From positions 248,001 to 312,000 of the forward strand of contig NZ_JARZHF010000004.1 in the NCBI RefSeq assembly GCF_029891575.1: a stretch of DNA of 64,000 nt. Reading direction: 5' to 3'. The position numbers and the translations under genes were made by a program. Under the pieces are notes generated by a model. The model was not told where the DNA came from, searched no databases, and saw nothing but the letters and a program-made list of their open reading frames with translations. The stretch is from Salipaludibacillus daqingensis (GTDB lineage Bacteria; Bacillota; Bacilli; Bacillales; Salisediminibacteriaceae). Below are positions 29,740 to 58,031 of the stretch, one piece after another; position 1 is the stretch's first letter, and the number at the start of each line of letters is the position of its first letter.

Positions 29740-30009
29740 AAAAAAATCCCGTCACTAGCTGTCACTAGGGACGAGAGTTAAAAATAACTTCCCGCGGTAC
29801 CACCCACGTTAGTGCACAATCGCACTCACTCAAAAGCCATTAACGCTGGCATGACGACAAAAGGTATCCCATTCGTTTCCCTTTTGCAACTCCAAGGTGA
29901 GTTCATAATTATCTATCGTTAACTTCCACCATCTGTTAACTCTCTGAGCATAGACAAATTATTACTAATCCTTCTCCTCATTTTTACACGTAGCTTAAAT
30001 ATATCATTA
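29740..30009 (-). promoter_or_regulatory. Leucine T-box leader of leuS
   Basis: Minus strand. The conserved T-box sequence GGGTGGTACCGCGGG is at 29791-29805. The terminator GUCCC...GGGAU followed by seven U is at 29740-29771. The likely specifier is CUC (Leu) in GAACUCACC at 29899-29901, in a large stem I whose start lies near 30000. Uncharged tRNA-Leu binding would favour the antiterminator and leuS expression. An additional 12-nt complement of the sequence just before the T-box lies downstream of the terminator at 29720-29731. Confidence 0.95.
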
Positions 30010-38664: not shown

Positions 38665-38833
38665 AAAAAACCTTCTCCCCATAGAGGAAAAGGTTACGAT
38701 CCATTCGCCTTTCACCTCTTATCAACCAAGACACACACACGTGTCCTGCAGGTTAGCACCGTTCACCTTTTTAGATGTGGTGATGGTTGCTGGGCTTCGT
38801 CGGGCCTGTCCCTCCGCCTACTCAGGATAAGAG
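38665..38833 (-). promoter_or_regulatory. SAM-I (S-box) riboswitch of metK
   Basis: Minus strand. P1 halves CTCTTATCC (about 38825-38833) and GATAAGAG (about 38716-38723) enclose the conserved core GGCGGAGGGACAGGCCCGA, AGCCCAGCAACC and GGUGCUAACCUGC. The expression platform is a terminator, AACCTTTTCC...GGAGAAGGTT plus T-run, at 38665-38694. High SAM stabilises the aptamer and terminates metK transcription. Confidence 0.97.
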
Positions 38834-52200: not shown

Positions 52201-53895
52201 TTAAACTTTCGATTTGATTGTAAAGGACCGAATGACTTGTTGTAATTCTTCCGCCATTTTAGCAAGTTGATTAGCCGATGCATCAATTTCTTCCATTGAC
52301 GCATTTTGCTCTTCAGCTGAAGCAGCAACATTTTGTGTATAGCCTGCAGATTGTTCCGCAATCGTGGATGATTCTTTCACAGAAGCTTCCACAGAATGAA
52401 CACCATCATCTATTCGTTCAATCGATGATGTTACTTCTGCCATTTGAGAAGATACTTGATTTATTGCATGTGTCAACTCTTCAAAAGAGTGACCAGCATC
52501 TTCCACAGAGTTCATTCCAGACTGAACAGCTTCACGACCATTTTTAGTGAAAAGCACCGACTCTTTCACATCTGTTTGAATGTGATCAATGAGAGTTTTT
52601 ATCTCGTTTGTAGCAACTGACGTTTGTTCGGATAACTTTCTTACTTCATCGGCAACAACAGCAAATCCTTTTCCGTGTTCTCCTGCTCTTGCAGCTTCAA
52701 TGGCTGCATTTAAAGCTAACAAATTTGTCTGTTCGGCGACTCCAGTAATTAATGATACAATCGAGCCAATTTTTTCTGATCTTTCAGCTAATTTGTTCAC
52801 TGATTCATCGATTTCATCTGTAATGTCATGGATAACTTTCATTTGAGAAACCGCACTTCCAATTACTTCCGTTCCGTGATTTGCCTTTTGAGCAGAATCT
52901 TCCGTAGACCTGTTTACTTCTTTAATACTAATCGTTATACGATCAATACTTTTTGACATCCCATTAACCGTTTCTTCATTTTCACTAGCTTTTTCCACTT
53001 GTAGTTCTGCTCCTGATGCTACTTGTTGTATCGAATCAGATATTTCTTCCGCAGCACGACTAGTCTCATTGGCACTAGCAAGAAGTTGTTCTGAACTTGC
53101 AGCTACTTGGTCAGAAGTTTCTCCGATTTGTGAAATCATCCCTTGTAAACTATCTATCATTCTATTCACTGCTAGACTCATTTTACCTAATTCATCATTT
53201 GATTTCACTTCAAGTTTGTCAACAGCTAAATTCCCTTTACTTATTTCGTCTGTTGTAATCACCACGTTGTTTAAAGAAGTCGTAATTCCCCGAGCAACAA
53301 ACCAGAAAATACTTCCACCAATCAGGATAACTGAAGCTATAATAATGACGAACGTAGTAATATTAGATGAAATGATCCCTATTACGTTCTGCTCAGATGC
53401 CTCCGCTTCTGCTAATACCATATCAGAAAGTAGTAACGAATTCTCAGTAATTTCTGACCTAATATCTGCCAATTCCTCAATTCGTCTATTTTGCATCGGA
53501 CCTACATCATTCGGAATTCGATCAACTTGATCATCAAAAGACTGTACTTGGTTTTGTATTAATTGAAATAAGTCTTCCGTTTCATCTGTATACATTCTCA
53601 ATTGCAAATCTTCCATATATTCATTAAGTATAGCTGATTGCTCATCATAAAATTGGAGGCTTTCTTCTTCTCCTACTCGTATATAATCTGTAACAGCAAT
53701 ATACTTTGATCGAACGAGAGAAGCAATATCCGTTACAACAACAGCACGTTCACTTTGTTGAGAGTATGTATCCATTTCCTCACTTATTTCTCCCATTTGA
53801 AAGTATGTTATCGTAGCACCAATAATAAGTAATAGAACCATTATAAAAAAAGTTCCAAATATTTTTATTCGTACAGAAAGATTCATTTTTTTCAT
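52201..53895 (-). CDS. Methyl-accepting chemotaxis protein
   Basis: 564 residues. TM1 ([20 protein letters not shown]) near residue 12, a four-helix-type extracellular sensor of about 145 residues, TM2 ([20 protein letters not shown]) near 180, a HAMP domain, then the long signalling coiled coil with the hairpin tip [20 protein letters not shown] and [18 protein letters not shown]. The ligand is unknown. The ATG at 53895 sits after GAGGGAGAAGG; the longer TTG start contains the ribosome site. No flagellar or che genes are nearby. Confidence 0.93.
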
Positions 53896-54139
53896 AGCCC
53901 TTCTCCCTCTCAAACCTTTTTATGTTAGACTCCTTTAAAACTCCTTATTTAACACACTACATATGAACCATATTTATCATATCACAACATAACATAATGT
54001 AGGTACAAAAGACTGACTTAATTACAATTTATAATAGACAAACTGATTTTCCAGGTACTATTTTTTGATCATTATGTCTTAATTACTAGTTGAGTAGATC
54101 ATACTTTTAAAGTGAAATTTATTTATATTCATCAAACAA

Positions 54140-54266
54140 GAAGCTATAAGGCTTCTAACCGTCGGTGCGACGGGGATAGCCTAATCAAAACTTTCGTTTA
54201 CGAAGGTGTTCTTAGGAATCCCCCACTTCAAACAGTTCGCAAGAGCAGTTAAGTGGCGGGTAGTTC
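54140..54266 (+). ncRNA. Orphan omega-RNA-like right end of an IS200/IS605 (TnpB) element, without tnpB
   Basis: The sequence shows the stem-loop order I associate with omega RNAs at the 3' end of Bacillus IS605/IS1341-type TnpB elements: hairpin GAAGC...GCTTC (54140-54155); TCTAACCGTCGGTGCGACGG with a perfect 6-bp stem (54159-54173); GGGATAGCCTAATC; stem ACTTTCG/CGAAGGT (54190-54207); TTCTTAGGAATCCCCCACTT; and the closing stem CCCCCACTT/AAGTGGCGGG (54220-54260), ending GTAGTTC. In intact elements the guide follows this end; here that would begin near 54267. No tnpA or tnpB reading frame, intact or broken, lies within 200 bp upstream, so this is a remnant, a non-autonomous (PATE-like) copy, or a retained RNA gene. 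The assignment is from memory of the motif. Confidence 0.72.
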
Positions 54267-54398
54267 AAAAATAGTTATTAGAAGGAATATCTCTTTAGTT
54301 ACAATTTTTCAAAAATTCAATAAAATAAGGACTACAATACTTATTTAGTTCATTGCTTTTTTTACAAGGAATGTCTATATATTCTTTCGTTTCAATCG

Positions 54399-54407
54399 TG
54401 GTATAAT
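54399..54407 (+). promoter_or_regulatory. Extended -10 promoter candidate for the acidic membrane protein gene
   Basis: TGGTATAAT (TATAAT at 54402-54407), with no convincing -35. The untranslated leader would be about 130 nt. Confidence 0.45.
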
Positions 54408-54541
54408 GAAATCACTTTTGATTTTCTATTGAGACAATCGTTTATAAGTAGATTGATTTTTAATACGACGGAAACTACAACGAATAATAGGTGTTAATCA
54501 TCGGTGATCTTTATTCAAAAACTCTTATTTGAGGTGAATTC

Positions 54542-55342
54542 ATGCAAAGAAATAAATTAATCATATTATCTATTGGTACCGTCATTTTAACGATATTAGT
54601 AATTGTTATGATTTTTTTGGAAAGAGGCGAGACAACTTCTAACGGAGCAGGTTCCAACGCCGTTGTAACGGATACTAATAGCAGTACGAATACAGCTTCA
54701 AATGAAGATAACGCTCAGCAAGATGACGAATCACTAAATGTTCAATCAGAAAACTCTATTGAAGAAGACGAAAACATCTATGACCTAAGTGAAGAAGAGT
54801 TAAGGGAAAAAGCTAGAGAAGCAATTGATTCTTCAACAATAAATGATTCCGAAACTGAGATGACAAAAGACTCTCTTTACAACCATTCTCTTTTAAATCA
54901 AAAGTTTAGGAACTCATTAGATGAAGAAACCAACTCTACAGAGGAAGATGTCGAGCAAAATGCCGAATGGCTATCGATTGAACTCATGGGATGGTATGAC
55001 TACGCTCAAGATAAATATGATTTTAATTATTCAGAAGACCAATTCCTCTCTTTTATTGAAAATGAAAATTATATAGAAGATGAAGAAATGATGGCAATAG
55101 CTTTGTTTGAAGAATTAAAACAAATAAATGAAAATGCATATATACGCCAATTAGAAACAAACTATCTAAAAGCATTTATATGGGAAAGTATTCAAGATGA
55201 TGTAGCATCAGAGATGTCCGATGATGTCTCAGGTATGGATAATGATAATGATAATGATGAAAATGAGTACCGATTATTTTTAGCCTTTGAACAAGAGATT
55301 ATGTCAGACCTAGTTGAAAAAAATCCAAATTTAGTGGAATAA
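54542..55342 (+). CDS. Uncharacterised membrane-anchored acidic protein
   Basis: 266 residues; I do not recognise the family. One N-terminal transmembrane segment (LIILSIGTVILTILVIVMIF) is followed by a very acidic, Asn/Ser/Thr-rich, low-complexity linker (to about 85), then a helical acidic domain with LSIELMGWYDYAQDKYDFNY. DNDNDNDEN lies near the C-terminus. Topology is probably N-in, with the acidic part outside. TTTGAGGTG precedes the ATG. It lies between the orphan omega-RNA-like element and a terminator. Confidence 0.65.
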   Translation: MQRNKLIILSIGTVILTILVIVMIFLERGETTSNGAGSNAVVTDTNSSTNTASNEDNAQQDDESLNVQSENSIEEDENIYDLSEEELREKAREAIDSSTINDSETEMTKDSLYNHSLLNQKFRNSLDEETNSTEEDVEQNAEWLSIELMGWYDYAQDKYDFNYSEDQFLSFIENENYIEDEEMMAIALFEELKQINENAYIRQLETNYLKAFIWESIQDDVASEMSDDVSGMDNDNDNDENEYRLFLAFEQEIMSDLVEKNPNLVE

Positions 55343-55366
55343 TAAAAGATACCTTTTTCAGTATTC

Positions 55367-55398
55367 AAAAAACCTCGTCAGTGTGAACGAGGTTTTTT
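55367..55398 (+). terminator. Terminator of the acidic protein gene
   Basis: AACCTCGT/ACGAGGTT stem (55371-55378, 55387-55394) with flanking A and T runs; could act both ways. Confidence 0.88.
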
Positions 55399-55499
55399 TA
55401 TTATTCTAACATTATATTTCCGAGTTAGGAGTTTCAAGATCTTTCATTTTCCCTATTAGATCGTCTTGCATTTTAAGACATCGATACTTGCATTATGCA

Positions 55500-56129
55500 T
55501 TATTTAAATTCACTGAAATCAACCTTGAACTGAGTTGATACAGAGGAATTTACTTTATCTTCAGCCACTACTATTGCTGATTGTGCAAAATCAAGATCTT
55601 CCACTTCAAGATAAATTGTTTTCAGTGTACCCGAACCTGATGTCATCGTGCGAATCGGTTCCACCTCTTCCTCACCTTGCTTTAGATGGATATCATAAAC
55701 GTACCCTTTATTCTCATTAAATCGAACATGAATCGGTAAATACTGATCCATTAATTCCTGTTTAATTTCTTCTGGAATAGGCCTTCTTCCAAAATGATCA
55801 TATAATTTTCTTGATTCCTTTATCGCTGAAAAGTAAGGGGTCTCTATATAAGCAAAAACTGCTTCTGAAAGCGTGGCTTCTTCTTCCTTTTCTAGTAAAA
55901 AATCTTCTACTAACTCAATGGAAGTTGTTCCTTTTTCAATTGCTTTTCGAATCTCTTGATCAGACAAATAAAAGTAATAGTCTTCATTTTCAAATGTCTT
56001 TTCTAGTTTATTTTCTAAAGAGCCCGTTCTTCCTAAAGTGTCCCCTACGGATTCATGAAAAAAATATACTAAACTCCCGACAATAAATATTGTCATGATT
56101 ATCATGCTAATAAACATTTTTTTAAACAT
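55500..56129 (-). CDS. Uncharacterised membrane-anchored protein
   Basis: 209 residues, not recognised. N-terminal signal/anchor (MFISMIIMTIFIVGSLVYFF), a charged helical middle (IRKAIEKGTTSIELVEDFLL) and a beta-rich C-terminal part (VRFNENKGYVYDIHL, KTIYLEVEDLDFAQSAIVV). Probably faces the outside of the membrane. The ribosome site is weak (GGACGGGAT). It follows metY by 60 bp on the same strand and may be co-transcribed with it under SAM control, because no terminator is obvious between them. Confidence 0.65.
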   Translation of the reverse strand: MFKKMFISMIIMTIFIVGSLVYFFHESVGDTLGRTGSLENKLEKTFENEDYYFYLSDQEIRKAIEKGTTSIELVEDFLLEKEEEATLSEAVFAYIETPYFSAIKESRKLYDHFGRRPIPEEIKQELMDQYLPIHVRFNENKGYVYDIHLKQGEEEVEPIRTMTSGSGTLKTIYLEVEDLDFAQSAIVVAEDKVNSSVSTQFKVDFSEFK

Positions 56130-57864: not shown

Positions 57865-58031
57865 AACTCCCTGTCAAAAGACAGAGAGTTGAATTCCCAT
57901 GAAAAATCATAAAAAGTCATCTCTCTCATCTACCAAAGCAAATGCTTTGCAGGAATTGGCACCTTGCTATCCTTTTGATAGCTGGTTGCCGGGTTTCATC
58001 GGGCCAGTCCCTCCGCCACTCAAGATAAGAG
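57865..58031 (-). promoter_or_regulatory. SAM-I (S-box) riboswitch of metY
   Basis: Minus strand. P1 halves CTCTTATCT (58023-58031) and AGATGAGAG (57923-57931) enclose GGCGGAGGGACTGGCCCGATG, ACCCGGCAACC and AAGGUGCCAAUUCCUGC. The terminator AACTCTCTGTC-TTTT-GACAGGGAGTT (57865-57890) is followed by TTC on the minus strand. It lies 32 bp ahead of the metY start. Confidence 0.96.

Follow-up and report, generated by a model that had tools for sequence, protein, structure and literature searches.

An omega-RNA right end of a tnpB-only IS200/IS605 element, probably left by 5' truncation, between two chromosomal genes of Salipaludibacillus daqingensis

Features of the locus

The window, the whole 64,000-nt stretch of DNA that was analysed, carries a remnant of 129-135 nt (approximately 130 bases) between two chromosomal genes. 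One of these genes encodes a protein that we take, from its sequence, to be of the methyl-accepting chemotaxis type; the other encodes a 266-aa protein found throughout the family. The features are as follows.

52201..53913, minus strand: gene for the presumed methyl-accepting chemotaxis-type protein, divergent neighbour
54128..54140, plus strand: putative truncation junction; unrelated flank ends in TTCAT (54128-54132), and homology begins at 54134 (AAA) and is firm from 54140
54134..54184, plus strand: remaining 3' part of tnpB, reading KQEAIRLLTVGATGIA in frame before the stop codon TAA, overlapping the omega-RNA (reading frame; tblastn match to TnpB residues 374-390, E 4e-5)
54140..54268, plus strand: right end of a tnpB element, a predicted complete omega-RNA scaffold ending in GTAGTTCAA (homology, covariance model and pairing)
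54269..54288, plus strand: would-be guide AAATAGTTATTAGAAGGAAT, which is flanking DNA, the first bases 3' of the conserved TTCAA
54399..54407, plus strand: TGGTATAAT, probably an extended -10 serving the 266-aa gene, in a block matched in 4/7 congeners and presumed to act as a promoter
54542..55342, plus strand: gene for the 266-aa protein, with a hydrophobic N-terminus (by eye) and no Pfam match, a neighbour only

Identity and boundaries of the right end

Positions 54134-54268 were 93-96% identical to eight other right ends of the same genome, and matched the 3' end of tnpB elements in both sequence and secondary structure. The conserved strings quoted in an earlier note on this DNA were present in the order it gave, and its assignment to the omega-RNA, or right end, of an IS605-type TnpB element held. 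Judged by sequence, 54140-54268 is the omega-RNA and right end of a tnpB-only IS200/IS605 element of about 1.4 kb, presumably to be named IS1341-type. Its sequence and structure, its overlap with the tnpB 3' terminus and its terminal TTCAA are those of the right ends of such elements; the left end and some 96% of tnpB, which complete elements have, are missing.

The sequence GTAGTTCAA terminated the element in all ten copies of the genome and the copies diverged beyond it, indicating that the right boundary is 54268 and that a guide would start with AAATAGTTATTAG at 54269, two bases later than the start AAAAATAG proposed earlier. When compared with seven other copies of the genome (the right-hand copy of C12 was left out), the window copy had private bases at 54137 and 54139, at the junction, and at 54197, in a loop. 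Because of the two mismatches at the junction, homology can be traced plausibly to 54134 but firmly only to 54140; from 54140 to 54268 the loop base was the single private change. The structured right end described earlier is therefore present, but its extent is corrected to 54134 (firmly 54140) to 54268. Since the tnpB stop codon lies inside the RNA, the window copy retains an in-frame stub of 14-16 tnpB codons that overlaps the omega-RNA.

No left end or tnpB body was detected. When the window was searched by blastn with five complete elements, only 54132/54134-54268 matched, and all else had an E of 0.26 or worse. In 53000-56000 only the last 17 residues of TnpB matched and the remainder had E above 2; neither PF01385 nor PF01797 matched on the window's contig. 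The TTTAT-flanked left end and the tnpB frame that define a complete tnpB element were both missing, in agreement with the earlier statement that no tnpB or transposase frame is present here.

Predicted RNA structure

The RNA of 54134-54268 had a predicted folding energy of -46.9 kcal/mol, whereas shuffled sequences averaged -30.9 (z -4.45; 0 of 200 shuffles as good). A pattern scan of a species-genome collection gave 38 stretches, mostly from Bacillus-like genera; together with nine loci of the own genome, and with 15 contig-edge copies and 3 duplicates left out, these yielded an alignment of 29 distinct rows, each with 40 nt upstream. The RNAalifold consensus of these 29 sequences had 33 pairs, 14 of them with a compensatory change. 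All 33 were formed in the window copy and 32 or 33 in the seven other own-genome rows, bearing out the claim that the stems can pair. The covariance search that had been proposed gave a mixed result. Rfam left the element unmatched, both for the whole window at gathering thresholds and for 53900-54560 at E up to 1, but a model built from the 29 rows scored the window right end at 149.9 bits, which is the score of a training member, the window row being among them. Elsewhere in the window, a T-box leader and two SAM riboswitches lie at 29764-29987, 38716-38833 and 57923-58031, all on the minus strand.

Related elements in the same genome

The genome is a draft of 4.58 Mb in 27 contigs. Matches to 54130-54300 were found at ten places: the window, eight near-identical right ends (93-96%) and a partial match on C6. 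Five of the eight belonged to complete elements and three were cut by contig edges. The window copy was the one seen without tnpB and left end, the three edge-cut halves being visible only up to the edge. The five complete elements, which answer the earlier proposal to look for matching TnpB elements, were 1399-1404 nt long and consisted of a left end starting CRTTTTCCGACAGAAGACTCYCTC, tnpB and the right end, with TTTAT flanking the left end in 5/5. Their TnpB frames were open over 393 codons (390 aa in the C9 copy when counted from its ATG). The one copy scanned matched OrfB_IS605, Cas12f1-like_TNB and HTH_OrfB_IS605 in Pfam, and the protein resembled the solved TnpB of PDB 8bf8 (E 1.2e-92). 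In a single alignment, the motifs VDLGLK, MESL and HDRDRNA paired with their counterparts in a TnpB-like designed nuclease; we take the catalytic D, E and D to lie in these motifs.

PF01385 matched seven times across the genome, where, besides a diverged frame on C6, there were at least five intact TnpB frames of the matching type. The 5' segment of tnpB occurred at eight places (five complete elements and three contig edges), none of them at the window, and the left end likewise at eight. Right halves lay at contig edges on C12 (two) and C13 (one) and left halves on C1, C2 and C7, indicating that about three more copies are split by the assembly. One of the right halves had a small frame-breaking lesion near the end of tnpB. 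The C6 locus (L017, G000 C6:339500-346060) held a TnpB element of diverged sequence whose tnpB frame is open, and alongside it lay a divergent Y1 transposase in fragments. PF01797 matched four times: two matches were in longer Y1 proteins, presumably RAYT-like, and two came from the fragmented transposase next to the C6 tnpB. An intact IS605-type TnpA was thus not recognised, and the only one recognised in the assembly is, by its sequence, broken.

The insertion site in congeners

The 266-aa gene was present in 34/34 other family genomes and in 0/25 outside the family. A first contig scan that used its protein as query confirmed no relative. One congener, G004, shared an identical stretch of 3137 nt with Salipaludibacillus neizhouensis DSM 19794, showing that the GTDB genus of the window is that of S. 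neizhouensis. Gene order near the site was largely conserved in seven congeners, with some intervening genes gained or lost. Among four congeners in which a chemotaxis-type gene adjoins the 266-aa gene, G007 has apparently lost an internal part of this gene; in G001, G005 and G006 another gene of the type lay in between. A rearrangement breakpoint at the remnant, considered as a candidate, was unsupported because the congeners have largely kept this gene order.

The covariance model had no match in G001, G003, G005 and G007, and matched G002, G004 and G006 only elsewhere, so that 7/7 congeners lack the insertion upstream of the 266-aa gene. Retention at the same place in related species, as a domesticated guide RNA might show, was seen in none of the seven. 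A block overlapping 54397-54419 and containing TGGTATAAT had a blastn match in 4/7 congeners, one of them weak (E 0.08). The remnant lies upstream of this probable promoter of the 266-aa gene, which the insertion leaves uninterrupted. Apart from itself, the left flank had two short matches in the own genome (E 0.006 and 0.07) when a duplicate was sought.

Guide targets and transcription signals

The TAM given for the ISDra2 and ISYmu1 TnpB proteins is TTTAT (PMC12908284). In the own genome, TTYAT followed by 15 nt of guide with up to 3 mismatches occurred at eight places, one of which was the locus itself; the other seven all had 3 mismatches, and the reversed control likewise gave seven. In viral contigs, searched for exact matches, the 20-nt guide was absent and the TAM with 13 nt was found three times, versus 23 times for the reversed pattern. 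The earlier proposal of targets beside a TAM-like TTYAT therefore failed to rise above control in either set, and no TAM-flanked target was identified at these thresholds. Promoter-like sites at the remnant numbered three, with 3.2 expected from shuffles. A terminator-like site at 54156-54139 on the minus strand (1 versus 0.1 in shuffles) coincided with the first stem as read on the complement of the RNA, and was discounted.

Solo and tnpB-less right ends in relatives

The covariance model had 45 matches in 34 other family genomes at E up to 1e-5. TnpB similarity was present in the fetched locus for 31 (two at only 22-23% identity) and absent for 14. Two of the 14 were at contig edges; among the other 12, five scored above 54 bits and seven scored 31-47 bits. 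Absence of tnpB was set by tblastn with one TnpB, which biases the tnpB-less count, and the weak matches (31-47 bits) may therefore belong to other TnpB types.

Of the five above 54 bits, L138 and L151 (genomes G034 and G019) were right ends with no left end, as in the window; the conserved string CTTAGGAATCCCCC was altered in L138, a sign of decay. Neither had a TTYAT-like motif at its junction. Three others, L139 (1501-1907, minus strand), L178 (2660-3072, plus strand) and L180 (270-644, minus strand), carried a tnpB-less element of 369-405 nt in G019 and G030, which share a genus label with two Evansella genomes. Each had TTTAT, a left end of the same kind, a non-coding stretch and an omega-RNA ending in TTCAA, and the guide differed at each of the three sites. 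They resemble the window remnant in an omega-RNA right end without tnpB, but differ in having kept a TTTAT-flanked left end and non-coding DNA at three sites. Its sequence suggests a mobile element that carries a guide RNA and is moved in trans. G016 and G009 also had matches to parts of it. An intron within the tnpB-less elements was considered and rejected: the lone Rfam match among six loci, a group II intron at L178 1628-1708, lay about 1 kb outside the element.

Internally deleted tnpB genes with intact RNA occurred in Evansella vedderi (L114) and Aquibacillus saliphilus (L117). In Metabacillus lacus KCTC 33946, thirteen contig ends (L089, L093, L097, L099, L102, L104, L107, L110, L118, L119, L121, L122 and L124) broke at the same place in the right end, indicating that the element is probably high-copy there.

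Discussion

A tnpB-only IS200/IS605 insertion that was later truncated from its 5' side to the right end, and is now inert, is in our view a very probable account of this locus. Of the options listed in the earlier note, a decayed insertion fits best, more exactly a 5'-truncated one with the left end and the tnpB body missing. We infer that, in the lineage leading to this genome, the space separating the 266-aa gene from the chemotaxis-receptor gene received an IS1341-like element. Its left end and almost the whole of tnpB would then have been lost by deletion, so that only the right end of 129-135 nt, which is also the omega-RNA scaffold, remained. The remnant would have been inert thereafter, because its promoter-like sites are indistinguishable from chance and it encodes no TnpB in cis. 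With no target above control, promoters at chance level and no intact TnpA, a truncated and probably inert remnant is the best reading.

Two observations count against truncation: the RNA is free of signs of decay, and the junction stands beside TTCAT, as an insertion site might. The undecayed RNA is compatible with a recent truncation, and selection is not thereby demonstrated. Under a simple Markov model, 15 nt of such DNA contain a TTYAT with a probability of 0.12, so TTCAT at the junction is within chance and was rejected as a sign of transposition.

It is improbable that the solo right end acts in trans, as an orphan omega-RNA that is transcribed, loaded into resident TnpB and cuts or blocks a TTTAT-flanked target, whether as a domesticated regulator or as a stand-alone guide locus marking or defending its site against alleles that lack it. 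Its scaffold is complete (33/33 pairs), and at least five intact TnpB frames, besides the diverged C6 frame, are present elsewhere in the genome, as the earlier note had supposed; in the single alignment the TnpB motifs paired with those of the designed nuclease. Since TnpB can yield omega-RNA when it processes its own mRNA on the 5' side (PMC10278001), and intact frames are present, a guide supplied in trans is possible in principle. It is unsupported here, with target matches at or below reversed controls, promoters at chance level and no conservation among the congeners. TldR-type domesticated TnpB regulators use their guide RNA for regulation. The idea of a regulatory guide RNA is common to both cases; the resident TnpBs here keep the RuvC motifs, which we take to hold the catalytic residues. 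A literature search of partial coverage found no solo right ends acting in trans, and absence from print is not claimed.

Still less likely is a PATE-like minimal non-autonomous transposon, mobilised by TnpA in trans from the TTCAT site. TTCAT adjoins the junction and tnpB-less elements with omega-RNA occur in the family, but the left end is missing, no second solo copy was seen in the genome and the only recognised IS605-type TnpA is in pieces. Like PATEs and other ends-only IS605 derivatives, the remnant is non-coding; PATEs retain palindromic ends (PMC7290912), whereas the window remnant has one end. A contig misjoined through the repeated element is the least credible account: several contigs of the draft break inside the element, but the three left and three right edge halves balance, leaving no orphaned left half, and the window copy has bases of its own at 54137, 54139 and 54197.

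As a truncated right end the remnant is ordinary. With an intact predicted scaffold, a distinct guide and five matching TnpB frames in the same cell, it is a convenient natural case in which to ask whether TnpB can take up guides that remnants supply in trans. If the tnpB-less elements in G019 and G030 prove to be mobile guide RNAs, they would be of greater import.
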